From the NCBI RefSeq assembly GCF_964204645.1, contig NC_134026.1, positions 25,872,650 through 25,936,649 on the forward strand: DNA of 64,000 nt. The letters are read 5' to 3'. How positions within the stretch are numbered: the stretch's first letter is position 1; every line of letters begins with the position of its first letter. This document shows positions 12,678 to 64,000 of this stretch, piece after piece. The notes below the pieces were generated by a model, which made no database searches, was not told the origin of the DNA, and saw nothing but the letters and a program-made list of their open reading frames with translations. The translations under genes were made by a program, and so were the position numbers. The DNA is from Tubulanus polymorphus (lineage: Eukaryota; Nemertea; Palaeonemertea; Tubulaniformes; Tubulanidae).

Positions 12678-15600
12678 ATGGTGAAAACGAAGATTGAAAG
12701 TGGATTTGTCACTATTTTTATGCTAAGTGTTATCTTGGCTCTGGTGAGTGGAGAATACGCCTACCAAGAAAGAAATCATGCTGATCAAAATCAGCAATCA
12801 AGAGCGCTATTAGTGGAGACGGAAGCTGATGCCGCAGTAAGTACACTCATGAACGCGGTTATTTTGAGTTACAATCACAAACTAAAAAAGTTCTGAAAGT
12901 CGATCGTATTTACCGTTTATGAGGCCCAATCGGTTTTACACATTGTCCATCAAATTCTTCTCATAATGGAGGTAAATGATAATTCAAATCCGATGCCACC
13001 ATTGATTGCCTTCTTTTCAGTATTTCACAATTTTTAATTCGCATTTTTTGTCTCAGAATAGTGACTATACCGACGAGCCAGTCAAAACAAGACGATCTAA
13101 TTATTATTCTAAGGGCCTACGGGTCTCATTTACATACCGTCGAATATCTTTTATGTATCAACTCATGCAACTATTCCGATATTTTTCTTTCGAAGTTTTC
13201 CACAAATGTAGCTCAATGGGTTCGATATGGTGTTCGGATTTTTCACGAGATAGCGTTTTTCAAAGCAGTGCAGTGTAGCTAGTACAAATACCAGACAAAT
13301 CCAAAATGCCCTGTTAAGGAATTTTTATTTGTCCTGTTTTAAAATGTAGTTTATTTTCTTTTTTCCAAGGCAATAATGGTGAAATATGGATACGTGGACT
13401 GTGAAGTTCATAAACAAGACGCCGGCCGTGCGTCAGACCTGGATCCGTCGGAACTCGGCCCAATCGATGCCATAAGTCATGAAACGGCAAAACGACAGAA
13501 ACAACTTTGTACTCGAGAACTGACGCGAAAAGCTATCCGAAAGTACCAGAAACAATTCAAACTTACAGAAACGGGTATCTTAGATGAAGCAACGAGAAAA
13601 TTGATGAGCGAAAAGCGTTGTGGAAATAAAGATTTCGGTGACACGGAGGAAGAACCACAAGTTACACCGGAAGCAGTTACTAGTACACAGAGAAGCATTC
13701 TCGACGTTGTTTTACCGACGGCGAGATCGCCTCTCGTTCGGCGAAGGCGAGCAATATCCGCCGTTATTCAGAAGATGAAAGAAAGGGACTCGCAACACAC
13801 GAAAAAAACCCGACGCATTCATCGATTAAGAACAAAATTAGGAATGCCAACTACACCGACGCCAAGGAACAGGCGAAAACGTTCACCGGTTATCGATGGA
13901 AATTCAACCCGGGCGTTTCTTTCAGATAAAATCATGTGGAGACTATTAGAGTACAGTGCCCGTATTCAACCCAGCGAGCAACTATCGACTTTGAACTTAG
14001 CATTTCGCATGTGGAGCGAGGTGATCCCGAAAGTGTTCACTCAGGAAAACAACGACCACATCTCAAGTGTAGATATCGAACTGGCTTTTGCTAAAGGTGA
14101 GCATGTGATACGCTTTGAATGTAATCATGTACAGCACGAGTGAGGGCCAGTCCGCGCCCGATGGTTCACAAGTTTATAGTATCAGAGCAAGCAATATAAT
14201 CTTAAGTGCACGAGGACTAAGGCTTCAAACACTGAAATCACCTTCTACCAAGATTTGATACAAGTATTAGAACTTAATACATAATGAAAGCACTCCGTGT
14301 AACTTCGCTCTCTGTCCTAAGTCAATACGGCGATGGAAGATAGGGTAAACATGTACACCACCATTCAACCAATATTCTATAGCTTAATTCAAGTCAATCT
14401 ATTATTACTTATCCTAGGGACACATCAGAATTGTGCTCGCGTTTTTGATGGCAACGGAGGAGAATTAGCACATTCCTGGTTGCATGGGGATATTCATTTC
14501 GATGATTCCGAGGACTTTAAAGCAACTGATGATACAGGAGTGCAGCTACTCCGCGTCGCTGTTCACGAACTTGGTCATTCACTCGGTCTCTCTCATAGTG
14601 CCTCTCGTGAATCCATCATGTACCCTATATATCGACCACAAGCTGCACCACATGATGACTTCGAGCTGCAACCGATAGATCGACAGCAGATTCAAGCCAT
14701 ATATGGTAAGAACTAATTTGATTTTGAAATGAAATAAAATTAGGCTACAACCAACCACGTTGAATACTGCTTATTTGAAGTAACCTGCGCTTTTCTTCTG
14801 TTCTATCATTTAAGGGGTGTGTAAGGGAACATTTGATACCGTATTCGATTATGTGCGAACTCTTCCCGATAGTACAAGTGTGTACAACACGTATTTTGTT
14901 CGTGGCAATCGTTATTGGATGTACGATAACAGAGAGCATAGGACTCGGTATGGGGATCCGTTGACTTTGACGAATGGTTGGTCGGGATTACCGGGAAAAA
15001 TCGACTCATATATTCACGTATACTATGACAATGGATTATCCGAGCATAGCGAACATTTTTTCTTTGCAGGTATGTCAAATAAAACCGTACATGATCATTG
15101 CAAAAATACCATTATTATTATCTTCAGATACATACACATCTATCGTTATATTTTAGGGGACAAATATAGCCAATTTGATCCCGTCTCGGATAGCATTAAG
15201 CCAGGTTATCCACGCTTGATATCACATGGTTTCGGCCCGGCTACTGGTCAAACCGAAGGTATTCCTGATAACATCGATGCGTCTTTCTTCGATCCTCGAA
15301 ATAGGTTAATCTATTTCTTCAAAGGAGAATACGTAAGTACCATCACGTTACACTGTTATGAAAAATCTAGTCATAAAATGGTGAGAGAGTTTCTGAATAC
15401 GTAATAGCTTTTATGTAAACTTGTTTGAATATTTTTAATATTAATATTAAAACATCTAAATAGTATTGATTCAAATCAGCCGTATTTCAATCCTTTTGCA
15501 GGTATACGCTTTTGATGAAAATCGAGATGGATGCTGTGAGTACAAAAAGAAGATTTCCGAAGAATTTCCTACGAAAGTTGGCAATATGCCACTTGTATCG

Positions 15601-20801: not shown

Positions 20802-23800
20802 TCACGTCTGGCTGATGTTTTGATTAACGTCCTTTTCAATGCAATCCGCGCCTGCAATAGGCATATTTTCCTTGCTCGCCGCCATATTTGAATCTGTGTT
20901 GCCAGCTGGAACGCAAATTTCGAGGTCGTTAAAACCTTTGTCGTTAATTGGTTCTGGACTCAGTTTTGGGTCAGTGATAGGTGCATCTGGCAATGACGTA
21001 GCCGTTTCCTTTATTTTAACATTACCATCCTCTGCAGATCTCTGTGACAGTACCGTATGTTGTCCGCATTCTGTATTTCCACCATCGTTATTGTTTATAT
21101 GTGTTCTGGTAGTATCTGATTCAATATTGCCATTGATGGCATTTTCACTCTTTTGGTCGTCATTGGTGCTAGGTTCTTGTTGGCCTACTGTCGTCGCACC
21201 ATTTTTAGTGTTATCTATATGCTTCTGCTCTGCCGCTTGAGCGTTTGAAATGTTTTCTTGTTTCTTCCATTTCGTGCGGCGGTTCTGGAACCAGATTTTC
21301 ACCTGAAAAACATCAACGAGGAAAAGATTTGCTGTTATGTGTGTTTACATTTTGCATTATACTCCTTGATTCTGAATTTAAACGCGGCTTAATCGATATT
21401 GCAATAGTAAACACGTGTTCAATAATCCTTTAATCGTTGGCCGTGTTAATAGTTTCCATCATTTTAAGTTAGACAAACACCATTAAATCTCAACAGAGCC
21501 TCATGAAAGGATAATTCATAATCGAAAAATATAAACCATTATCAGACCGAGATAAAAATGCTACTACAGATCTGTAAGACGCGTCTCTTTACAAATCAAT
21601 CACTGCCACCTCTACCCCCATATAGCATTATTCAATAATGCTAACTTTTCCAACTCAAAAGTCTTCTATGATTGATTTAGGAGGGCGACGTTTTAATGAA
21701 TAGACTTTGAATTTCAAAAGTTACTGATATCATGAGAACATTTTTATTAGCAACTCATGGCCATCTACACAGGTAACAGGTATAAAATGTGGCCATAACG
21801 ACATACTCGTCCGATCCCACAGTTTATGATGTGCTTATCACACTAAAAATTCTTTGCTTTAAACTCACTTATTATATGACCCCGAATATTGTATTTGAAT
21901 TTATTGTTTATTATTGGCAATTATACGATAATAAGTGATCGTTGGAAAGCAATAAACAAGATAAATCGCGATAAGAAAGTGACGGACTAAGATCAGCAAA
22001 CTTTTTCTGGGAACCAGCCAGTTGCTACCGACAAAATATTTGTTGACATTGAAGTTTTAATAGCAGTTATACACGGGATAATGGCTTTGTGATCATTCGA
22101 TTTGAGACCTGATCAAACAAAAGACTGACAAAACGTAAATAAATAAATGATGCGGGCTCCCGTGTAAAAATCTAACGTTTGTTTTGTGGAATGCGGGTTC
22201 GAATGTATTTTTACGTGTATTATCTATGCACGCACAAGCCTTCAACAAACAGCTATTTAGAGAAAAAATTGACTGCAATTTAGAGAGAAAAAAAATTGTT
22301 CGAATTTCAAATCCGAAATTCAAGACTTTATTTTACATAGACAATGATTTACCTGCGTTTCTGTAACATTGAGAAGTCGAGCCATTTCAGCACGTTCGCT
22401 GGACGATAGATATTTCTTCTGCTCAAACTGTTTTTCAAGTTCAAATATTTGGCGACCAGTGAAAGTTGTCCGGGCTTTCTTCTTCTTTTGCTCGTCCTTT
22501 TTATCTTTGCTGCAATCATCTTTCTTTTTTCGTTTTTCTCCTTTCAATTCTCCATCACCTGAAAATAGAAGAACACCAAAAAATTATAATAACTTCACAT
22601 CGTTTGAAAGAAATTCCCTTCTTATAACATAAAATGTAACGAGACCCGTTTCTCAGTTTAAGGAAAATCAAATTGACGTGTACTGAAATCGTTTCTTCTG
22701 TGTTACTAGCGACGATTTTATAGCGTTAATCATCGTCGTGAAACCTAAACACACGGAACAATCGACGATTCGTGCGTGAAGTGTACATTTTAATTCCCGA
22801 CGCAGACGATCGGCGTTTAAAAGCTTCTGGTCGGCACTAGTACATCAAATCACACCGTTATTGCTGTCAGCATAGGTTCCGCACCTATTATTTCTACGGC
22901 GCAATTTAATCCCCTCTTTGTCATGCTGCCAGAACGATTCCGGTATCCAGTCCGCACCCCAAGAGCTCCAGCGTCATACATCATCCGACTGACATCAAAT
23001 TAATTGTAAAATTACGAGTTGACAATTGCTTTCCGACTTGGAATTAAACGAGCCGGATTCCCGACTATCGCAGTACGCTTATCTTCATCGATTTAGCAGA
23101 AGTCGTTTTATCGGGTTGCTAAAACATGTAACACGAATTTTGAAACTTAACACGCGGAGGCTTTATGGATTGAGATAAGATCTCAACGTTCGCCAAAAAC
23201 AAATTAACTGAAAAATTTCAAGGAAAGCCTGTAGCTTGAATTACACGGACATGTGAAACCAACTAAACTTTTAACAAGTGTAAAAATACATATTTTCATC
23301 ATTTTCAAGGACCCGCTCAATGTTCTGATAAGTATGGCTGAATGGGGAATACTAAATCAAGTATCAAACATAGACGACAATAGCACAATGTATATGTAAT
23401 TGAAAGAGTCAATGGTTTATAAACAGCTTTGTCGTTTGCAAAAGAAGAGTCAAATTTGCCAGCAATTTCAGCGTACAAGTGTCGTTATGGGAACTGGGAA
23501 AAGCGTCAAACCGAATGATTACTCCCAAGGAAGTCATGAATGCGCGGTTAAGTCAACTTAGAATCCCTTGGCTCGACTAACGTTGATAGCTGTAATCCTT
23601 ATTTTTCACCCAAGAGATTATATCTGACGGATAATGAATCATCCGCTAATTCGGCATGTAAGGGCACACACCTACATTACTAACCGATACCAGCCGCCTG
23701 ACTTCAGCCGGGAATTCAAAGCTGCTATACCGAATTTTATGCGAGGTGTCTTTTATCAGAAATTTAATCAATTCCCACAATAGCGGCGAATAAACGGTAG

Positions 23801-44995: not shown

Positions 44996-47900
44996 TTAAA
45001 AGTTATTGTAGGCGCTTGTTGATGGTGGTAGAGTTTGTTCAAGAGTTGAACGGATCGTTCTCAACGCATCGTGTTTTTCTTGCCACTGGTTTTCGTCATC
45101 AATTGAGATTGGAACAGGGGCTGCAGTGAGGATTCTACGGACTCCTGGTGCTCCGACGGACTTTGATCGGGCATGGTGTACTCTGCTATCACTGCTCCTC
45201 GGTGTGGATCTCATTACACGTGTCGTGTATATGGGCTGTGAATATTGCTGTTGTTCTTCGACCTGGCATACAGCAACGTACTGAATGGGCGTTTTTTGAT
45301 GGTATTGGGGTTGGATTGAGTTTAGTTCAGCTTGCAGTTGGTTGATTTTTTCCTCGAGTAAACGTATCTGGTTATCCTGAAATAAACACTACTTAAATTC
45401 TGATGGCCACGAAAGGATGATTAACTGCGGAATTTTTGAATATGATAATCTTTAGTTTTACCTTGCTCATCAATTCACTGACGCGAGATCTTATTTGTCT
45501 TTCAAGGATACCGACATGCTCTCGGCAGGTTTTCAATTCCTGCTCGGTACGAATCGTCTGGAACAGGACATAAAGCAACAATTAATCTTCAAGATGGTCT
45601 ACTGATGCATAACTTTCTATGGAACAGTTTTACTTACCCGATCGCTTGTCCTCAGGGCTTTTATTTCATTTTCTCGTCTTTGTAGAAGTATTGAAGTATT
45701 CTTAATTTCACTCTCTAGTCTAGCAATCTTAAGATAAAAGTTTAAAAAATTTACATTTGACTGTAACATTGAGTTTGAAATATGAAATATATGATAGTCA
45801 ATAAATCATATTTACCCTATCCAGTTCAGATTGGGCATTCATCAGTTGGTTTTCCAATGATTCAATTTTCTCAATATCTGAGGGCAGTGATCTATATTCA
45901 ACTACAGTTTCTACTGGACGTGATTCTAAGGTTTTAATATCCTCCTCCAATAGAGCAATCTAAATTTGTAAAGGAAATACATTTAGTTAGATACCATATG
46001 TAAACCTTCTTAATTTGTACACGATATCACTAATCATCAGATTATTCATAGCCTTGGCCAATAGATATATACCTTATTGAGTAGATTTGAAATGGTAACC
46101 TGCGCTTTCTTCAAATCATCTTCGAGTTCTTCTATCTGTAAGAGAATACAGAAAAATAATCTACCATTCATTATTTCCATCCTTTTATATACACATCTTC
46201 AGTTTTAAACCGATATACGAATGTAATCCCAATATTTTAAATCATATTCAAAATATGTTAGAAATCATTTTGTAATTAAAGGAAAACTTACTCTCATTAG
46301 ATCAGTGTCGACCGAACGAAATTCTATTTCTGGTTCCTTCGATTGCACTAATTCTAATTCGGCCTTTATCTTTTCGAGTTCAGTTTCTAATTCGCTTATC
46401 TTTAATAATGGAAACAAAGAAATCATTAAAAGTATCAGTATTTTGATTGTGTAATATGACATTGTCATTCAACAAACTGAACGTACCTTTACTAGATCAG
46501 CCGATGAACTTTTTTCAACAATTCGATACACGACTTCAGCTGATTTTGATTTTTGTTCAGCTAACTCCTCTTTAACCACTTCAAGTTCAGATTTAAGCTG
46601 TGCAATCTAGAAATCATCATCATTAACGATTGATAAATAGACTATCAATGATTATATAATATCAAAAATTTCGGTAATCGATGAACTAGAAAATAAAATC
46701 TGGTTACCTTTTCGACATCAGCCTCAAGAGATTCCACCACCGGATCAACAGTTTGCAGTTCAACTAATGTTTCCTGCGTTTGTAAAATCTGAGAATGAAA
46801 AATTTGAAACAATCACTGAAATTTTGTGATCGTTCAATACGAAAAGATTTAAAGTAACGGGGTTTTGTTTATTTTACCTGGTCAGTATCACTATTCTTTT
46901 CATCTTTAATCTCTCCATCTTCATCCTTTAATCCATAAAAGAACAACAGTTTAATTTGACAATAACGATCTTTAGAATAGACGTTCGATGTAGGTGATAT
47001 TTTCGTTTGTTCGACAATTTACTAGTATTGACTAAATTTCGAAACTTATATGAATAGCTATGATAGATTTATATACACCTACGCCTACCTCATCTACAAA
47101 AGTCTCATCTGGACTCGATTCGACGATCTTGACCTTTTCTACAGTGACTATTTCGGTTTCTACTACTTCGACTGATTCTGCAGGTTCAATAATGTCAACT
47201 TCATATGTTTCATTTGAGTCGATGTTTTCCTCTGTTTCATTCGCATCATCCTTTTCGATTTCGTCAACCATCGATTCGACAACCTCAACTGACTCCACGT
47301 TTTTGACTACTTCTATGACAGCATCTTCAGTATCAACAGTGTCTTCACCTTCCTCTTCAATAGTTGTCTCTTTTTTATGTTTAATGGTAACATCTTGTTC
47401 GTTGCCATTGAGGCATTCCAATAATTTGATCATATCGTTGACCTTGACGGAGCTCTAAAAGCGAATTAATACATAAAATGATTTGGTGGACAATTCGTGT
47501 AGCTTTAAGAAATTCTTAATGCCTGACATTATTTACCACAGCAACTTTATGGGGTGCGATTTCTTCAATGAATTCATCCTCTTCCACTGTTACTACATCG
47601 GCAACTGGAGCAGATTCGACGCCAATTTTGTGAACTGCCGCGATTTCATCATCAACATTTACTTCCAAGGAATCGACATTGTCGATTGAATCGTGGCTCA
47701 GCTGTTTTGTCACGGTCACTAGTTCTGTCTCGAGTTCGTTTATCTTAAGAACAAAACATGTTGGAATTAGAATGGTTTGTTTTACGGCGAGCTAATTCAT
47801 GAATAACAGTAGAATTACCTTCTCCAAGTCTATTTGAAGAGAATCTACGTCATCTTGCTCTAGCTCAATCCTCTTGATCAATTGTGCATTCTGTATTAAA

Positions 47901-49429
47901 AGAATAAAATCTAATGACTGAAACGAATATGAAACGCTCAATAAAATCTCAATAAAATCAAATGTTTTACCATGCTAGATAACAGAAAACAGTTTCATTT
48001 TTTTCTCATATCATGAATGAAACTGTTCTGTTATCTTATGAACTTCCTAACGCGAAAATGTGGAATGTCGTGTATAAATTAAGACTCACTAACCTCTCTC
48101 TTAAGTTTCTCCAGCTCAACAGCCTTAGCCTCTAGCTGTCTGTCATGAGTCGATTGCCTGCTCGTAATAATCTTCATTTCAGCTTCTAGTTTGCCGTTCA
48201 AAGCCTCTATCTCACTACTCTTTTCCTTGAGTTGATTTTCCAGAAAGACAATACGTTCGGATTTCTCTTGTAGTTCTATATCCAATTCTGCTTGTACTGA
48301 CTCGTACTTGCTTATTTCTTCGTCTTTTCTACGCATATCACTTTTCAGGTCGTTGATGCTTTTTGCGGCGTCCTTTTCAACTCGGCCAACACGGACTTGG
48401 AGCTCTAGTTTCTCGGAACGCAAATTCCTAATTTGGCCTTCGAGTTCTGTTACTCGCTTTTCACCTTAAATAGTAGAAAAAGGGTTAACAACATCAAATC
48501 AGCTGCCTTTTTTAATTTGCAACGCAAACAAGTCTTTGTGAATTACCATTTTCTGCACGATTGACGATCTCTTTCATTTCATCGAGTACTGATGTCTTTT
48601 TTCGCACTGGTTCGGAAACGTAAGGTGAAGGTGGAGCACTAGAAACCCGCGATACAGCTGATGACGTAATTGGTTGCTCCTCGATCTTAGTTGCTACTCT
48701 GAAATTGAAATTAATGTTACACACACACATTGTACAAATAGCTGATTGATAAGTTGAAATTAGAAAGAATACAATTCTCGACATATAAACCTACTTTCCC
48801 TTAGTCTTCGAATTTGGTAGCAAGACTCGATTTCCAGATGTTGTGATAACCCATTTTTGGGCTGGTTCTCCCCCTTCGATAATTGATGATCTTGCGCTCA
48901 ATGTGTCTGAGCCATAATCTGATGTGGGAGCTTTATTCAATGATGAAGTACTTTGGCTCCTGTAGATTACTTCACTGTTCATCGGATAGATACTTTTTGG
49001 TGCACTATTCAACGATGAACTTGACGAAGCAAAAACTCTTTCTTGTAAATAACCTCCATTAGCAGTCCTGGAACTTGTGTCTGCGCTGGATGTATGCATA
49101 CCTTTCGGTGGGTTGGAAACGATTCTTCGGGAAATGACTCTTTTACCATTGAAATATTCAGGCGATTCTGATGCAGTACTACTGACTTGAGTTTCGCCAG
49201 CTGTGTAAGTCTGCTGTGTATTTGGTGCGGCACCGTTGAGAGTAGAACGACTTGATGAATACGTCATATATCGTGTACCATTGCCGTCTAAAATATCATA
49301 TCGAGGAACAAAATTTTTTAATTTTTTTTTGATCGACAAAATGTTCATAGTCAAATATTTGATTGTTGAGTCAATACAATGAGTACAGGTTCAATTCATA
49401 CCTTGAATACGTTTTTCGTTAGTTGACAT
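44996..49429 (-). CDS. Gene B: coiled-coil protein with Ser-rich head, 16 coding exons, 939 aa
   Basis: Coding exons: 49429-49402, 49287-48795, 48698-48547, 48464-48094, 47890-47819, 47743-47537, 47454-47089, 46925-46878, 46788-46708, 46606-46487, 46399-46292, 46135-46073, 45959-45816, 45727-45638, 45557-45462, 45376-44996; the total is 940 codons. Head of about 225 residues, rich in Ser/Thr/Asn (YMTYSSSRSTLNG, GKRVISRRIV). The 371-nt exon gives about 123 residues of unbroken heptads (SEKLELQVRVGRVEKDAA onward). From 47890 every junction is phase 0. Many later exons start with the same I-x-x-L-E pattern as gene A's modules: ISELETELEKIK, IALLEEDIKTLE, IARLESEIK. The tail is Gln/Ser/Thr-rich. 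No signal peptide or membrane segment, so probably a cytoplasmic structural or scaffold protein. No LNDR or TYRKLLEGE rod-end signature was seen, so intermediate-filament membership is not supported. Family unrecognised. Confidence 0.75.
47089..47454 (-). other. Acidic Glu/Val/Asp-rich exon of gene B (122 aa)
   Basis: This phase-0 exon begins SSVKVNDMIKLLECLNG and then becomes strongly acidic and low-complexity, with runs such as NVESVEVVESMVDEIEK and AESVEVVETEIVTVEK. It breaks the heptad pattern of its neighbours. The antisense strand is open here only because of this composition. Confidence 0.7.
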
Positions 49430-52778: not shown

Positions 52779-55700
52779 TTAATACTTACAGTAAGAATGA
52801 GAGTAGGCTCGGCTGGTACTAGCACTGCGAGTAGCCGCTCCTCTGGATGAAGTTGAAGATTGTCTACAAAAAAAATCCAATATGATCGTTTTTGACATAA
52901 GAAAATGACACAGCATTACAATCAATTAATTAATGCGAAAACAATTACCTGCTGCCATGGGAGGTACTTGTTGCGCCGAAGAGTGGCCCTACCTCGTAAG
53001 AGGTGCTGGTTACTACAGTGGGGGATTTGTAGCTGGATACTTTGCGTGTCTCAGTAATTGATGGTGCAGATTCGTAGGTTGTCGAGTACGTGAGAGTTGG
53101 GGCAGATTCAAAGTATGATGTAGATGAAGATTGAACTGATTCATCGATGTAAGGTGACGAGGACGAACCGTAGCTTGAAACTTTGCGGGTCTCAGTAATG
53201 GTCGGTGCAGATTCGTAGCTAGAGACTTTGCGGGTCTCAGTAATGGTCGGTGCAGATTCGTAGCTAGATACTTTGCGGGTCTCAGTAATGGTCGGTGCAG
53301 ATTCGTAGCTAGAGACTGTGCGGGTCTCAGTAATGGTCGGTGCAGATTCGTAGCTGGAAACTTTGCGGGTCTCAGAATATGCCGGTGCAGATTCGTAGCT
53401 TGAAATTCGTCGCGGGGAAGACTCTTCGTAGGTAGAGATTTTACGTGTTTCGGAATATCTCGGGGAAGATTCAACGTAGGTTGTCTGAACTGGCTGAACA
53501 ACTTCTACGTGTTGTGTTTGTCTAAATTCACATAAGATTATAAACCGTCAGAAATACGATCAGTGATGCTTGAAGGGATAGAAATTTCGGTGTTGTTCTT
53601 ACCTAACAGTCACAAGTTCTCCTTCCAATCGTCTTACTTCCTTTTCCAAGAAGGCAATCTATAAAATAATACATGAAGAATAGGATTTTATGAATTGATT
53701 ACACAAGAAACGAACGTTGATGTATTGTTTAAGTGACCGTGACAATATTTACCCTCTCAATATCTACAGCTGACGTTTTTTCAACGTATTCTGTTTTGTA
53801 CTCAACACGAGGAGGGGTACTCTTGAGCAGTTCAATTTCACGTTCAAGTCTGGAAATCTACAATATATGATTGACATTCTTTATTGTTCATCATATTATG
53901 ATCCTTTTGAAAGAAATCGTTGTTTTTATAACTAACCAATGAAATATCCTCTTGCGCTCGTTTCTCAACCTCAACGTATTCGGTCTTGGTTTCCACACGT
54001 GCTGGGATATTTCTCATTCGCTCCACTTCTCGTTCGAGATACAAAATCTGAAACAAATCAGGGTTTCACTTACGCTCGTAAGATGACACGATTTCGTGGT
54101 GCATACACCACACAAGCCTTTAACCTTACCCTGTCAGCATCGTGTTGTGATCGCTTCTCGACTTCAACGTACTCGGTCTTGATCTCAACCTTTGGTGGTG
54201 TATTGCGGAAAGTCTGAATTTCCTTTTCCAAACGTTCGATCTGAAAATAGCGGTAATCTTGAGGTCTCGATCGTTCAATTAACATAACAAAATCAAATCA
54301 AATCAAAATCCATTCTTACCATAAAGATGTCATCCTGACTACGCTTTTCAACCTCAACATATTCAGTCTTGTACTCGACACGTGGTGGTGTGTTTCTCAA
54401 TCGTTCGAGCTCTCGTTCTTGGAATGCGATCTGAAAATTGATAACATAAACTACTGAAGCATCATTCTCTGGTTCAGGTCTTTTGAGTTGTGGGACATTT
54501 TTAGTTCCGAAAATATATGTACCTTGTCGACATCAGCTTGCATTCTCTTTTCAACTTCTACTTCAATGTATTCGGTCTGTACTTCAACTTTGGGAGGGAT
54601 GTTTCTCAGTCTGTTAGTTTCCTTTTCTAAGAATGAAATCTGTAAAAAGAATGTTAACTATTTTTGTTTCTCTCCTCATAGTTGACAAGATGAATGCGGT
54701 ATATTATTATTTAGTTACCCTGTCAATGTCAGTCTGCATGCGTTTCTCGACCTCAACATATTCGGTCTTGATTTCAACGCGCGGTGGAATGTTCCTGATA
54801 CGTTGTACCTCCTTTTCAAGGAAGTTTATCTTTTTGGAAGAGAGAAATAAATTATGGATTATCGAATTTTGATATATCGAAATGTATTTCTAAATATAGT
54901 ATTTTAAGACATTTACCCTGTCAATGTCAGTTTGCATACGTTTCTCAACCTCAACATATTCAGTCTTGATTTCTACACGTGGTGGGACATTTCTGATACG
55001 TTGAATATCTTTCTCAAGGAAAGCAATCTGTAACAGATAGATGCATAAATATCAAATAAAAGCTAAGACTATGGTACCAGTAGTTCTGTTTTTTCTTGAG
55101 ATACTTACCCTGTCAATGTCAGTCTGCATGCGTTTCTCAACCTCAACATATTCAGTCTTGATTTCTACACGGGGTGGGATATTTCTGATACGTTCAATAT
55201 CACGTTCAAGGAATGCAATCTACAATACGAAAGTGGAAAGTGGTTAATCATTTAATCGAACTAATGTGGGTTATTGGGAATTGGATTAACATTTCATAAG
55301 CGACATAAGATCTTACCCTGTCAATATCGTTTTGCATACGTTTCTCAACCTCAACATATTCAGTCTGGATTTCCACACGTGGTGGAATGTTTCTGATTCT
55401 TTCAATATCTTTTTCCAAGAAAGCGATCTGTAAAAATAATACATTACCATAGCAATATCTACAAATAAAAATTGACAACATGGTTTCACAGTTTCCAGAA
55501 CGGTGAAAAATACCCTATCAATGTCAGTTTGCATGCGCTTTTCAACCTCAACATATTCAGTCTTGATTTCTACACGTGGTGGGATATTTCTGATACGTTG
55601 AATTTCTTTCTCAAGGAAAGCAATCTGTAACAGATAGATGCATAAATATCAAATAAAAGCGAAGACTATTGTACCAGTAGTTCTGTTTTTTGTCCTGAAA

Positions 55701-58700
55701 TCCTTACCCTGTCAATGTCAGTTTGCATACGTTTCTCAACCTCAACATATTCAGTCTTGATTTCTACACGGGGTGGGATATTTCTGACACGTTCAATATC
55801 ACGTTCAAGGAATGCAATCTACAATACGAAAGTGGAAAATTGCCAACCATTTGATCAAACTAACATTTGCTCAAACATGTACCTGTGGTTTACTGGGAAT
55901 TGGATTTATATTTCATATGCAAAATAAGATCTTACCCTGTCAATATCGTTTTGCATACGCTTCTCAACCTCAACATATTCAGTCTGGATTTCTACCCGTG
56001 GTGGGATATTTCTGATTCTTTCAATATCTTTTTCCAAGAAAGCGATCTGTAAAAATAATTGAATTACTACAGCAATATTAAAATTGACAGTATGGTTTCA
56101 CAGTTTCCAGAACGGTTAAAATTACCCTATCAATGTCAGTTTGCATGCGTTTCTCAACCTCAACATATTCAGTCTTGATTTCTACACGAGGTGGGATATT
56201 TCGTACGCGTGTAATTTCATTTTCAAGATGAGTAATCTGTTATCAAAATAAAAAAGTAATAAAATCCAATTTAGAGTAGGAAATGTTTGAAAAGTTTGTG
56301 ACGCATACCATTCGCTAGCTTACCCTGTCGATATCAGTTAGCATACGTTTTTCAACTTCAACATATTCAGTCTTGATTTCTACGCGAGGTGGAATGTTTC
56401 TGATTCGAGTAATCTCATTTTCAAGATGAGCAATCTGAAAAACACCACGGAGATCAATTGAAAATACAGTTACTTGAGTTAAAGGTTGATTTTGCTAATA
56501 AACTATTGAAATATACCCTGTCAATGTCAGTTTGCATACGTTTCTCAACCTCAACATATTCAGTCTGGATTTCCACACGTGGTGGGATGTTTCTTATTCT
56601 TTCAATATCCTTTTCCAAGAAAGCGATCTGTGAAAAAAAAACCGAGTTAACATACTGTAGAATAGTTATTTTGAGATATATACACATATAAGTTGGATTT
56701 CCAATTCCCGGTAGCAATTACCCTGTCAATATCTGTCTGCATGCGTTTCTCGACCTCGACATATTCAGTCTGGATTTCTACGCGTGGTGGGATGTTTCGG
56801 ATGCGAGTGATTTCATTTTCAAGATAAGCAATCTACACCGTGGAATATAAATTTCAGGTAACTTACTCACTTATTCAATGAATAATTTTATTAATGGACC
56901 CGTACGCTCTGTCTATACCTTATCGATGTCGGTTTGCATACGCTTCTCGACCTCAACATATTCAGTCTTAATTTCTACTCGTGGTGGGATGTTTCTAATT
57001 CGTTCAATATCTTTTTCCAAGAACGAAATCTATGAAAAGAGTTCATAAACTGTAGTTTCTATGCTGATATTAGATAATAGAAAGAAATCTAAAAATATTA
57101 ACGTTTTTAAAAACCTAAATGATTATTCTAATACCTACCCTGTCAATGTCACTCTGCATTCGTTTCTCAACCTCAACATATTCAGTTTGGATTTCTACAC
57201 GGGGTGGGATGTTTCTCAACCTTTCGACTTCCTTTTCGAAGAAGGCAATCTAAAACAAATAGATAAGTGCGCATGAAGTGATGCAACAAAAAACTGCCAT
57301 GCAATATATGAATTGACTTCTCGGATATTAAATCATACCCTGTCGATATCAGTCTGCATACGTTTCTCGACCTCAACATATTCAGTCTTAATCTCTACGC
57401 GAGGTGGTGTATTGCGGAAAGTTTCAACATCTCGCTGCAGTTGCTCAATCTACAAAAGTTGTTAACAAAATATTCTCTTGCTGTAAACAGGCTGATGTAA
57501 GAAATCATACAAGCCCAAACAAGATATGATTCCTACCAATAAGATGTCATTTTGTTGCCGTTTTTCGACTTCCACGTATTCAGTTTGAATTTCAACACGG
57601 GGTGGGGTATTGCGGAGTTGGGTCACTTCAACTTCAAGTTGGCTGATCTGCATAGAAAATCAAATATCGCCAAATGTGAAATAGTCAAGATTTGGTGTTT
57701 TTGCCATTTCATGAAAATTTGCTTACCCTGTCAATATCACTCTGCATACGTTTCTCAACTTCAACACGTTCTGTTTTGATTTCTACGCGCGCTGGGGTGT
57801 TTCTAAACGTCTGCACTTCACGTTCAAGGCGTTGTATCTAGAAAATGGACGTCGATTACATTCACCTGATTCTTAACTACAGACAGCCAAACACGAAAAT
57901 CAGAAATACAAAACTTACCAAATCAATGTCGCTTTGCATGCGCTTCTCTACATATTCAGTTTTATATTCAACACGAGCTGGTTGATTCTTATAGGTTTCT
58001 ACCTGTACGCGATAAGTCTCCAGTTCTCTCTCCAAATACGCAATCTACAAAGATGCGGCGATAACATAAGTCCGCGCAAGCCTTTCAATACGAAGTCCCT
58101 CATATTTTGTTCATAAATCGAATTTCCGAAAGTGGGAGGAAATAGAACCTTAGGGGATCTACGAATCTATGTAAGAATCAAATCTAGCATTTACTTAGGT
58201 TCTTTCTCAAACTCGGTGTTATTTTCTTGTATTTGAGGGGCAGTCAAACCATGGACGTATAAACTAGTTTATACGTACATGGTCAAACAAGCAACATGAT
58301 TTATAACTCTTCGGTTAGCATTCAATAAATAGAAGAATAATATTTACGCGATCCAAATCAGCTTGTGATGTTTTCTCAACATATTCCGTCTTGTACTCGA
58401 CGCGACCAGCCGTAGCTCGTAGAGTTTCTACCTCCCGCTTGTACTTTTCTAATTCCTTTTCCAAGAATGCGATCTAACGTAAAAATATCATTGAGTTAAG
58501 ATCAATCAGAAATGCAGACATTTCTTGATTTCATGATGAAATTGAACATACCCTTTCTGTGTCCTTACTACTGGTTTGAATGATAGTTGTAGAACTAGAT
58601 GGAGCTTCGGCATAACTCGAGTAAGTCGACTCCCTGACTAACGCCGGCCTGTTCAAATCAAAATCCACATTTTAGAATGTTAACATCCATTGACATCATA

Positions 58701-59546
58701 TGTGACTTACGAAAAGTGAATTTTCAAAAGAACAGAGTTTGACAGTTTTGATGGGAAAACCTACTCAGAGGAAACATGCGACACTTTTTGGGTAGTGATA
58801 GTCTCTGTGGGTCCGTAGTAGTGTGCCCCAACTGAGGATGATTCGTATGTAGTACTGTATGATTCCGGAGCACTACTCTTGTAAGTAGTAAGTGTGTACT
58901 CAGCTGGAGTCGAATGAACGGTTGTATATTCAGTAGGTACTACCGATGAATAAGACTTGCTAACAGTAGTGGAACTCGAACCATTGGTTTCAGTGTAACC
59001 ACCACTGCTGGAGCCTCCACTTACAACAGTGTAGCTACTGCTGGAACCTCCACCAACTACCTGTTTACCACAGCTGCTGCTTGAGCTTCCACTAACTACC
59101 TGGTAACCACCGCTGGTGCTTGAGCTTTCACCAACTACTTGGTAACCACCGCTGGTGCTTGAGCTTTCACCAACTACTTGGTAACCACCGCTGGTGCTGG
59201 AGCTTCCACCACCTACCTGGTAACCACCGCTGGTGCTGGAGCTTCCACCAACTACCTGGTAACCACCGCTGGTGCTTGAGCTTCCACCAACTACCTGGTA
59301 ACCACCGCTGGTGCTGGAGCTTCCACCAACTACTTGGTAACCACCGCTGGTGCTGGAGCTTCCACCAGCCACCTGGTAACCACCTCCGCAGCTGCTGGAG
59401 TTTCCACCAGCTACCTGGTAACCACCTCCGCAACTGTTTGAGCTTCCACCAACTACCTGGTAACCACTGCCGTAGCTTGAGCAGCTGTAACCACCATTTA
59501 CAGCACCACTCGTCATCATATAACCACCATTCATATTGTAAGACAT
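52779..59546 (-). CDS. Gene A: tandem-module coiled-coil protein with Gly/Ser head and Ser/Tyr tail, 28 coding exons, 1391 aa
   Basis: Head: exons 59546-58765 and 58648-58552, 293 aa, Gly/Ser/Tyr-rich with a repeated GYQVVGGSSSTSG unit. Then 23 complete modules of 35-42 aa, one exon each, all phase 0 (58473-58348 down to 53857-53753), and a half module (53658-53603). Tail: 53521-52949 with repeated SSYESAPTITETRKV, and a last exon 52863-52779. The CDS sums to 1392 codons. A typical module starts IAFLEK, has a central IPPRVE, then TEYVEVEKR, and ends TDIDR. The first half has heptad-like I/L spacing; Pro-Pro interrupts each module. No signal peptide, membrane segment or intermediate-filament rod signature, so a cytoplasmic structural fibre or scaffold is the best inference. 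Paralogous to adjacent gene B by module start and exon phase. Family unrecognised. The stop lies inside a consensus donor (T|GTAAGTATTAA), so a further exon is possible. Confidence 0.78.
52949..53521 (-). other. Gene A tail exon with 15-residue Ser/Tyr repeats
   Basis: A 573-nt exon (acceptor GAATTTAG, donor AG|GTAATT). Five consecutive 45-nt units encode SSYESAPTITETRKV or close variants (roughly 53175-53400), with looser YESAP copies after them. Codon use is nearly identical between units, so the array is young or homogenised. The frame is fixed by phase from the 56-nt exon upstream; another open frame across this exon is a shadow. The many Ser/Thr/Tyr residues could be phosphorylated, but that is inference. 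Confidence 0.8.
54917..56125 (-). repeat. Recent duplication of a three-exon block (about 600 bp) in gene A
   Basis: Introns as well as exons match between block 54917-55513 and block 55514-56125. GATAGATGCATAAATATCAA occurs at 55036-55055 and 55633-55652. ATACGAAAGTGGAAA occurs just after 55219 and just after 55818. TGGTTTCACAGTTTCCAGAA occurs just before 55514 and just before 56126. Matching introns show that three exons were copied as one unit. Confidence 0.85.
58255..58276. repeat. 22-bp perfect palindrome in a gene A intron
   Basis: ACGTATAAACT followed directly by AGTTTATACGT, extended imperfectly by CCATG and CATGG on either side and flanked by GTCAAAC copies. It lies in the intron between the 126-nt exons, the longest of the array introns, and may be a small insertion. 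Confidence 0.7.
59046..59480 (-). repeat. Gene A head minisatellite (39-nt unit, 13 aa)
   Basis: About ten units encoding GYQVVGGSSSTSG and variants (GYQVAGGSSSSCG, GYQVVGESSSTSG, GYQVGGG). The units are nearly identical in DNA, so copy number probably varies between individuals. Gly/Ser loops with regular Tyr recall keratin-type heads and silk-like linkers in composition only. Confidence 0.88.
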
Positions 59547-63553: not shown

Positions 63554-64000
63554 ATGTCGAGACCAGTAAATAGAGTATCGGGTAAATGGAAACCAACAGC
63601 GAAATATTTCATTACTGTAGTGTAGAATATCTTTTAGAATTGTAGCAAAAATGAATACTCTTCTATTTCAGTCCCCCAGGGTCATTTGACCAATGGAGCC
63701 AACGGTAACGTTACGATTACATCCTCAAAAACTGTTCAAGGTGTAAGTAATCAAGACATATCGAGAATTGATTATCTATTTTCAAAATAGATTTTGAAAT
63801 ATTTTGGGTTTTATATTTTAATATTTCTATTGTAGCACCCTACTGGTGGGAGACGAGTTATCAGCGCTGAGGAATATCAACAACGATCTCGCAGCGTGGG
63901 TGCCAACCGACCGATGACTGTCATCAGCTCCCAAGCGGCCAGTCGCAGTAGCAGCGCGTCGGCAACTGCTCATCAACCTGCGAACTCAACTACTGTCATT
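63554..64000 (+). CDS. Gene E: N-terminal part of a gene B-like coiled-coil family protein (partial)
   Basis: Coding exons: 63554-63581 (MSRPVNRVS plus one base), 63672-63742 and 63836 to beyond the window end; phases join (1, then 0). The first coding exon is 28 nt ending in phase 1, exactly as in gene B (MSTNEKRIQ plus one base). The head is Ser/Ala/Thr-rich, with GGRRVISAEEYQQRSRSVG recalling gene B's GKRVISRRIV. This is the N-terminal head only; any coil lies outside the window. The start is supported by the acceptor just upstream and by similarity to gene B. It is divergent from gene A. Confidence 0.6.

Follow-up and report, generated by a model that had tools for sequence, protein, structure and literature searches.

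The window analysed here is a stretch of 64,000 nucleotides (nt) from the nemertean Tubulanus polymorphus (NC_134026.1, positions 25,872,650 to 25,936,649). It lies on contig C2; C1, C2, C5 and similar labels denote contigs of the same genome. Its minus strand carries gene A, which comprised 23 phase-0 module exons at 58473-53753 with a Gly/Ser-rich head before and a Ser/Thr-rich tail after them. The spliced model held approximately 1,390 residues. The features of gene A, all on the minus strand, were:

58765-59546, start-codon exon encoding the Gly/Ser/Tyr-rich head (MSYNMNGGYM...), phase-2 donor, 5' untranslated region outside the model
59039-59467, 39-nt tandem repeat in the head (13 residues, GGYQV...), 10.8 copies
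58552-58648, exon 2, Ser/Thr-rich, reaching the first module
58348-58473, module A1, 42 residues, without Pro-Pro
57919-58044, module A2, 42 residues
57727-57837, module A3
57537-57647, module A4
57339-57449, module A5
57139-57249, module A6
56919-57029, module A7
56722-56832, module A8
56517-56627, module A9
56324-56434, module A10
56126-56236, module A11
55936-56046, module A12, near-copy of A15
55708-55818, module A13, near-copy of A16
55514-55624, module A14, near-copy of A17
55317-55427, module A15
55109-55219, module A16
54917-55027, module A17
54719-54829, module A18
54523-54639, module A19, 39 residues
54320-54430, module A20
54130-54240, module A21
53937-54047, module A22
53753-53857, module A23, 35 residues
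53603-53658, half-module exon of 56 nt, helix part only, IAFLEKEVRRLEGELVTV
52949-53521, tail exon, Ser/Thr/Tyr-rich, with a 15-residue (45-nt) repeat at 53169-53405, 5.3 copies, around YESAPTITETRKVSS
52779-52863, last exon, C-terminus ...RAYSHSYCKY followed by the stop codon

An earlier note, made from the letters of this DNA alone, had described the protein as a series of one-exon modules, and this observation was confirmed. Its lengths (21 of 23 modules of 105-117 nt, nineteen of exactly 111 nt) were exact on recount, with 111 nt in 19 exons, 126 nt in two and 117 and 105 nt in one each. The motifs were less uniform than claimed. Ile was the first residue in all 23 modules and the full I-x-x-L-E start was found in 20. 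At the proposed D-x-(D)-x-(R/K) end, Asp stood at position -4 in 23 of 23 modules, as well as in 65 of 65 canonical modules of genes A, B and C, and the last residue was R/K in 19 of 23. The Pro-Pro ascribed to every repeat was present in 19 of 23; A1 had the residues AG instead, and A2, A3 and A22 had PA. TEYVEVEK itself was exact in 18 of 23.

Splice acceptors were AG in 24 of 24 cases (the 23 modules and the half module), and the donors of these exons were GTAA (16), GTAT (4), GTAG (2), GTAC (1) and GTTA (1). The 23 introns among them measured 79-117 nt, with a single exception of 303 nt. None of the 23 module exons contained a stop codon, and AG and GT were retained at all of them. Searching the full window on both strands for phase-0 exons of the module kind returned 23, all in the gene A region of the minus strand, and none elsewhere. 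Phase 0 at both ends of every module exon means that unequal crossing-over can change rod length with the frame intact. Growth by symmetric phase-0 exons, as the earlier note had proposed, was supported. The rod of 861 residues contained no Cys, one Gly, no GFGG and no VPV, with 9.5% V, 11.4% I, 2.7% A and 0.1% G. Cys occurred in the head and at the C-terminus and Trp was absent. No signal peptide was apparent by eye in the N-terminus MSYNMNGGYMMTSG. Both ends were also internally repetitive, with 10.8 copies of a 39-nt unit in the head and 5.3 copies of a 45-nt unit in the tail.

Gene A was not alone. A DNA search and a protein search (tblastn, in which only 70 candidates were scored) gave 69 module matches in the genome, and 68 of them fell within 37 kb at C2:25.926-25.963 Mb; the remaining match, on C1, had an E value of 2.1. 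The cluster comprised three clear paralogues, gene A together with genes B and C on the plus strand to the right of the window, and gene D, which runs in the same direction as gene A and opposite to B and C. Twelve canonical modules from gene B and 30 from gene C were used. Genes A, B and C had one exon per module, and canonical modules ranged from 33 to 46 residues. Gene B contained extra degenerate 5' modules and one exon in which a module is fused to the beginning of its successor. Gene C also had degenerate 5' modules, and its decayed exon (C2:25958851) and truncated exon (C2:25961979) represent exon loss in progress. Gene D (49390-44999, minus strand) had coiled-coil-like frames, several with an I-x-x-L-E start and a D-x-x-K/R end and without Pro-Pro. 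It looks like a degenerate relative, because of its module-like ends, its position and a tail stretch compared by eye, the likeness among the D, B and C tails being that of IRSTLE. The features of gene D, and of gene B as far as it enters the window, were:

48791-49390, minus strand, gene D Ser/Thr-rich head exon, open frame
48082-48465, minus strand, gene D long coiled-coil-like frame
46487-46606, minus strand, gene D degenerate module, 40 residues, without Pro-Pro
46292-46399, minus strand, gene D degenerate module, 36 residues, without Pro-Pro
45816-45959, minus strand, gene D frame of 48 residues, a module plus the start of the next, intronless, used for fold prediction
44999-45388, minus strand, gene D tail frame with RTIRSTLEQTLP; like stretches were seen by eye in the B and C tails
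63836-64000, plus strand, start of the gene B head frame, which runs beyond the window to C2:25937489

Other material was seen around the gene B and C modules. Upstream of the gene B modules, C2:25939156-25940215 held a second series resembling exon repeats, with units of about 25 residues (I-x-D-L-E...MTNMK...YKNK) in approximately six frames, as judged by eye. Between genes B and C, an open frame of 1,147 codons (C2:25951580-25955020) resembled the long interspersed nuclear element (LINE) type, the family being assigned by eye.

The modules are under purifying selection. Across 44 modules of 111 nt, the proportion of nonsynonymous differences (pN) was 0.16-0.21 and that of synonymous differences (pS) 0.64-0.77. 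The resulting dN/dS was 0.12 among gene A modules, 0.07 among those of gene C and 0.08-0.10 for comparisons between genes; for gene B modules it was not computable since pS exceeded the correction. Mean identity at 4-fold sites of common residues was 0.43-0.55. Silent sites have diverged and dN/dS is 0.07-0.12, and the modules therefore belong to a real, constrained protein. Some copies were recent: A12/A15, A13/A16 and A14/A17 were identical at 106, 108 and 105 of 111 nt, respectively, modules 7 and 25 of gene C at 102 of 105 nt, and A14 and A17 with flanking intron were 96% identical over 181 nt. Module identity was 0.718 within genes versus 0.678 between them, a small difference that was reached in none of 1,000 permutations. 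Across genes, A16 (55109-55219) and module 17 of gene C (C2:25960285-25960395) shared 102 of 111 nt, and their introns aligned no better than random controls, a control that is loose in that the aligner drops poor ends. This exon-only likeness may reflect gene conversion of exon length.

For the 37-residue modules (44 in all), strong hydrophobicity was seen at columns 1, 4, 8 and 11 (a heptad pattern), at 14 before Pro-Pro, and at 18, 25, 27 and 35; column 20 was weaker. E23, E28, K29 and D34 were invariant in 44 of 44. The helix half, read across the junction (residues 29-37 plus 1-13), had a period of 3.5 that was equalled by 1.7% of shuffles, and residues 17-24 had a period of 2 equalled by 3.0%. 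Heptad periodicity and a predicted helix, the general marks of a coiled coil, were found in the helix part only. A profile search of PDB gave seven sequences at E ≤ 1 (best 0.065), mostly short coiled coils, which module residues 1-13 resembled at non-significant E values of 0.065-0.89. A match of ApaG (1tza, RVEVKTEYIE, E 0.3) was considered as a strand hint and set aside as not significant.

With AlphaFold2 (AF2), a single module (25 window modules aligned) was predicted to form a helix at residues 2-12 and no structure after it, with a mean predicted local distance difference test score (pLDDT) of 69.9 and block means of 82, 74, 63 and 56. For the 48-residue frame of gene D, helices were predicted at 2-13 and 26-47, the second crossing the junction, with a non-helical stretch between them (mean pLDDT 83.0). 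Because of these helices, the exon boundary is predicted to lie inside a helix and the break inside the exon. Prediction thus supports a structural unit that straddles the exon junction, with a heptad helix of approximately 22 residues, after which Pro-Pro and 12-15 residues in extended form usually follow. The short heptad segment, proline break and alternating segment of the earlier note were supported. Its interpretation was partly supported overall, since gene A belongs to a paralogue cluster and the predicted structural unit is shifted against the exon.

Module length followed a pattern that differed between the two parts. Eighty modules of the four genes were split before the alternating segment (RVE), 65 canonical ones by pattern and 15 by hand. 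Frames with no recognisable alternating segment were left out, namely the gene A half module, the decayed gene C exon C2:25958851, the gene B frames C2:25938276 to 25940957, 25941161 and 25941778, the gene C frame 25956264 and the other gene D frames. The first part was 16 residues long in 68 of 80 modules (62 of the 65 canonical and 6 of the 15 hand-split), 23 residues, corresponding to one extra heptad, in six (two canonical, four hand-split), 27 in one and 18, 18, 19, 21 and 22 in five that were all hand-split. The second part, counted from RVE, had 9, 13, 15, 17, 19, 21 or 23 residues in 78 modules and 14 or 24 in two. Changes in steps of seven residues are compatible with a coiled coil, and those in steps of two with an extended strand. 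This length rule, mostly sevens in one half and twos in the other, would be a clue to structure that is read from sequence only.

In profile searches, joined modules passed the cut-offs of several coiled-coil families, and single modules matched no Pfam family convincingly. In a Pfam scan of 53 single modules, five matched at E ≤ 10, to four families, with a best E value of 0.017. Lzipper-MIP1 (PF14389, cut-off 32.2 bits) scored 34.3 bits with part 2 of gene A and 52.1 bits with 12 joined gene B modules; it stayed below the cut-off with part 1 of gene A (28.2) and six gene C modules (26.0) and was unlisted for the 53 single modules at E ≤ 10. DUF1192 (PF06698, cut-off 25.5) scored 31.5 bits with six gene C modules and 46.4 bits with the 12 gene B modules. 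Its best stretch covered only positions 27-41 of 58, and one of 53 single modules matched it (E 0.11), which does not amount to membership. The 12 joined gene B modules also passed the cut-offs of ZapB (41.2 bits) and Cep57_CLD (38.4 bits), and part 1 of gene A passed no Pfam cut-off. Lzipper-MIP1, DUF1192, ZapB and Cep57_CLD are mutually unrelated and single modules fail; the hits are taken as summed heptads and not as membership. They support helices, not the filament claim.

The alternation of Val/Ile with Glu/Lys recalls the alveolins, articulins and epiplastins (IMCp), and a gene B frame reads EKIVEVEVEKIVEIPEK. Alveolins and epiplastins are reported to have 12-residue repeats (PMC4303705) and a medial domain that is mostly helix-free; the same account gives no IMCp candidates in animals, yet epiplastin-like proteins in Insecta (PMC6212826). 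In contrast, the present unit has 37 residues and a predicted helix, and VPV is absent from the rod. High V+I and low A+G in the medial domain are an epiplastin trait, and the composition of the gene A rod may point in that direction. The IMCp profile was unlisted in the Pfam scans of the gene A parts, six gene C modules (best 25 of 28 matches), the alternating frame of gene B, the 53 single modules and the B and D modules. The loose alveolin likeness suggested in the earlier note is compositional. The gene B frame at C2:25940470-25940748 reads EIIVEKEIEIEKIVEVEVEKIVEIPEKIIEVEK, with an alveolin-like alternation, and matched no Pfam family at E ≤ 10.

The prokaryote (GTDB) and viral (IMG/VR) collections gave 9 and 118 pattern matches, none of which was confirmed by tblastn. 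The string EYVEVEK and combined repeat terms returned nothing in open-licence full texts, and nothing fitting was found among the matches listed for the cytoskeleton literature on Spiralia and Lophotrochozoa in the same texts. Searches of Pfam, PDB, GTDB, IMG/VR and this genome placed the family in no known family; relatives may sit in other spiralians.

Judged by its architecture, gene A most likely encodes a cytoplasmic filament or scaffold protein. There is about an even chance that the locus is a small cluster of cytoplasmic structural genes whose products form a rod of coiled-coil and extended modules that assembles into a filament or mesh. The gene A protein would have a flexible head and tail rich in Gly, Ser, Thr and Tyr on either side of a long rod of serial modules. 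Helices of neighbouring chains would pair as short coiled coils, and the extended segments could serve as stiff linkers or form small sheets between chains. Laterally aligned rods might then build filaments or a mesh, cross-linked through their Cys- and repeat-rich ends.

Among the other explanations, a ladder resembling cortactin is taken most seriously, although it is unlikely. Each 37-residue module would bind a subunit of actin or of another filament, with no self-assembly. The invariant E23, E28, K29 and D34 are what a charged binding face would show, and an unbroken helix of 37 residues at 1.5 Å would span approximately 55 Å, close to the spacing of actin subunits along a strand. The cortactin/HS1 repeat (PF02218) is likewise a tandem, one-exon repeat of 37 residues and 111 nt. 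For cortactin, five human exons are reported to be 111 nt long, copy number to differ between species, and an HS1 intron to contain a 111-nt relic that has no function (PMC554100). The repeats reportedly bind F-actin (PMC554100, PMC5711941) and are disordered in solution (PMC5711941). Growth of repeats by symmetric exons is already known, and cortactin is a close formal precedent. However, of the 13 genome matches to the HS1_rep profile at E ≤ 10, C1 had 12 and C11 had one, and there were none in the C2 cluster. The 11 matches above the cut-off lay together at C1:27.356-27.359 Mb, and the genome therefore has a separate cortactin. Unlike cortactin, the present family has almost no Gly (one in the 861 residues of the rod, and no GFGG), carries Pro-Pro and heptads, and has 12-30 canonical modules per gene versus about six. 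Pro-Pro should break the helix, and module lengths of 33 to 46 would spoil a fixed spacing. A rod that is helical throughout, with no beta part and with one helix of 30-35 residues per unit kinked by Pro-Pro at its N-terminus, is also rather improbable. Module lengths of 35 and 42 are whole multiples of seven, columns 20, 24, 27 and 31 of the 37-residue form also lie on a heptad stripe, and prolines are tolerated in the first turn of a helix. Against this, AF2 predicted no helix for residues 13-37 of the module or for 14-25 of the 48-residue gene D frame, and length changes of two residues in the second part would turn a helix by approximately 200 degrees.

Descent from an intermediate-filament protein whose rod was replaced through exon duplication is disfavoured and very unlikely. 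Features in common with intermediate filaments and lamins (PF00038) are the layout of head, rod and tail, the heptads and the Gly/Ser-rich head. Both lamin-like and cytoplasmic intermediate-filament loci exist in the genome, and joined gene B modules reached 29.4 bits with a crescentin rod profile, far below its cut-off of 100. The present rod, by contrast, consists of serial short modules with Pro-Pro breaks. PF00038 was unlisted for all family sequences scanned: part 1 of gene A (E ≤ 1), six gene C modules (best 25 of 28 matches at E ≤ 10), the 53 single modules (E ≤ 10), and part 2 of gene A and the gene B and D modules (E ≤ 1). None of its 25 matches in the genome was on C2, the lamin-like and cytoplasmic loci being on C5, C7 and C40. 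The view of the earlier note that this is not an intermediate filament agrees with these scans. A decaying or untranscribed tandem duplication without function is hardly credible: the decayed and truncated exons of gene C would fit it, but dN/dS is about 0.1 and all 23 exons of gene A are stop-free with AG and GT kept. At one cytoplasmic intermediate-filament locus, contig C7:15680788-15699316, three first-rod exons stood in succession, with a single exon for the distal rod end, a layout that may reflect alternative starts.

Several results weigh against the assembling rod of coiled-coil and extended modules, or against the steps leading to it. The helix half was less periodic at 3.6 (9.6% of shuffles) and showed no periodicity at 3.67 (27%), and a period of 2 was unremarkable in residues 16-28 as a whole (69%) and in 23-29 (42%). 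Several segments and periods were tried and the shuffle percentages are uncorrected. Chou-Fasman averages failed to separate the two module parts. Neither AF2 model contained a predicted strand, a sheet being beyond what one short chain can show, and both models were built on thin paralogue alignments (25 and 7 sequences) with predicted template modelling scores of 0.26 and 0.38. Slippage of V-E codons alone, without selection, could yield steps of two residues, and 15 of the 80 modules in the length count were split by hand. The gene B tail, used as search bait, matched only itself and not the C or D tails.

The cluster appears to combine a plain coiled coil (D), half-formed modules (B) and, in A and C, a regular rod, with gain and loss of exons continuing, and it would let the making of a structural repeat protein be followed. 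The intermediate forms in D and B suggest how the modules originated, most likely from an ordinary coiled coil of the gene D kind. Few classes of cytoskeletal filament are known in animals. Tentatively, and with less probability than the cluster of structural genes itself, the family could be a lineage-specific class of animal cytoskeletal filament unrelated to intermediate filaments, with mixed coiled-coil and beta-alternating modules, a rod length tuned exon by exon and a module length changing in quanta of seven (helix) and two (strand).

Other loci were recorded in the window and genome. A catalytic exon of a matrix metalloproteinase was found at 14321-14716 of the window on the plus strand (Peptidase_M10, 97 bits). 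The end of a homeobox, which we take to be NK7-like, lay at 20802-21344 on the minus strand, with 22.9 bits for Homeodomain, equal to its cut-off. Just to the right of gene C, the frame at C2:25971863-25972516 resembled a TGF-beta ligand by eye. The genome gave no exact match to the nematode SL1 leader and none to the COX1 family. On contig C6, ten Hox-like homeoboxes formed one cluster on one strand (C6:5318228-5634747), one of them followed by KLNGP and two by KKExQxIKELN. The homeobox with KLNGP is presumably Lox5-like and one on C5 presumably Cdx-like, and we take these signatures to be spiralian (lophotrochozoan).

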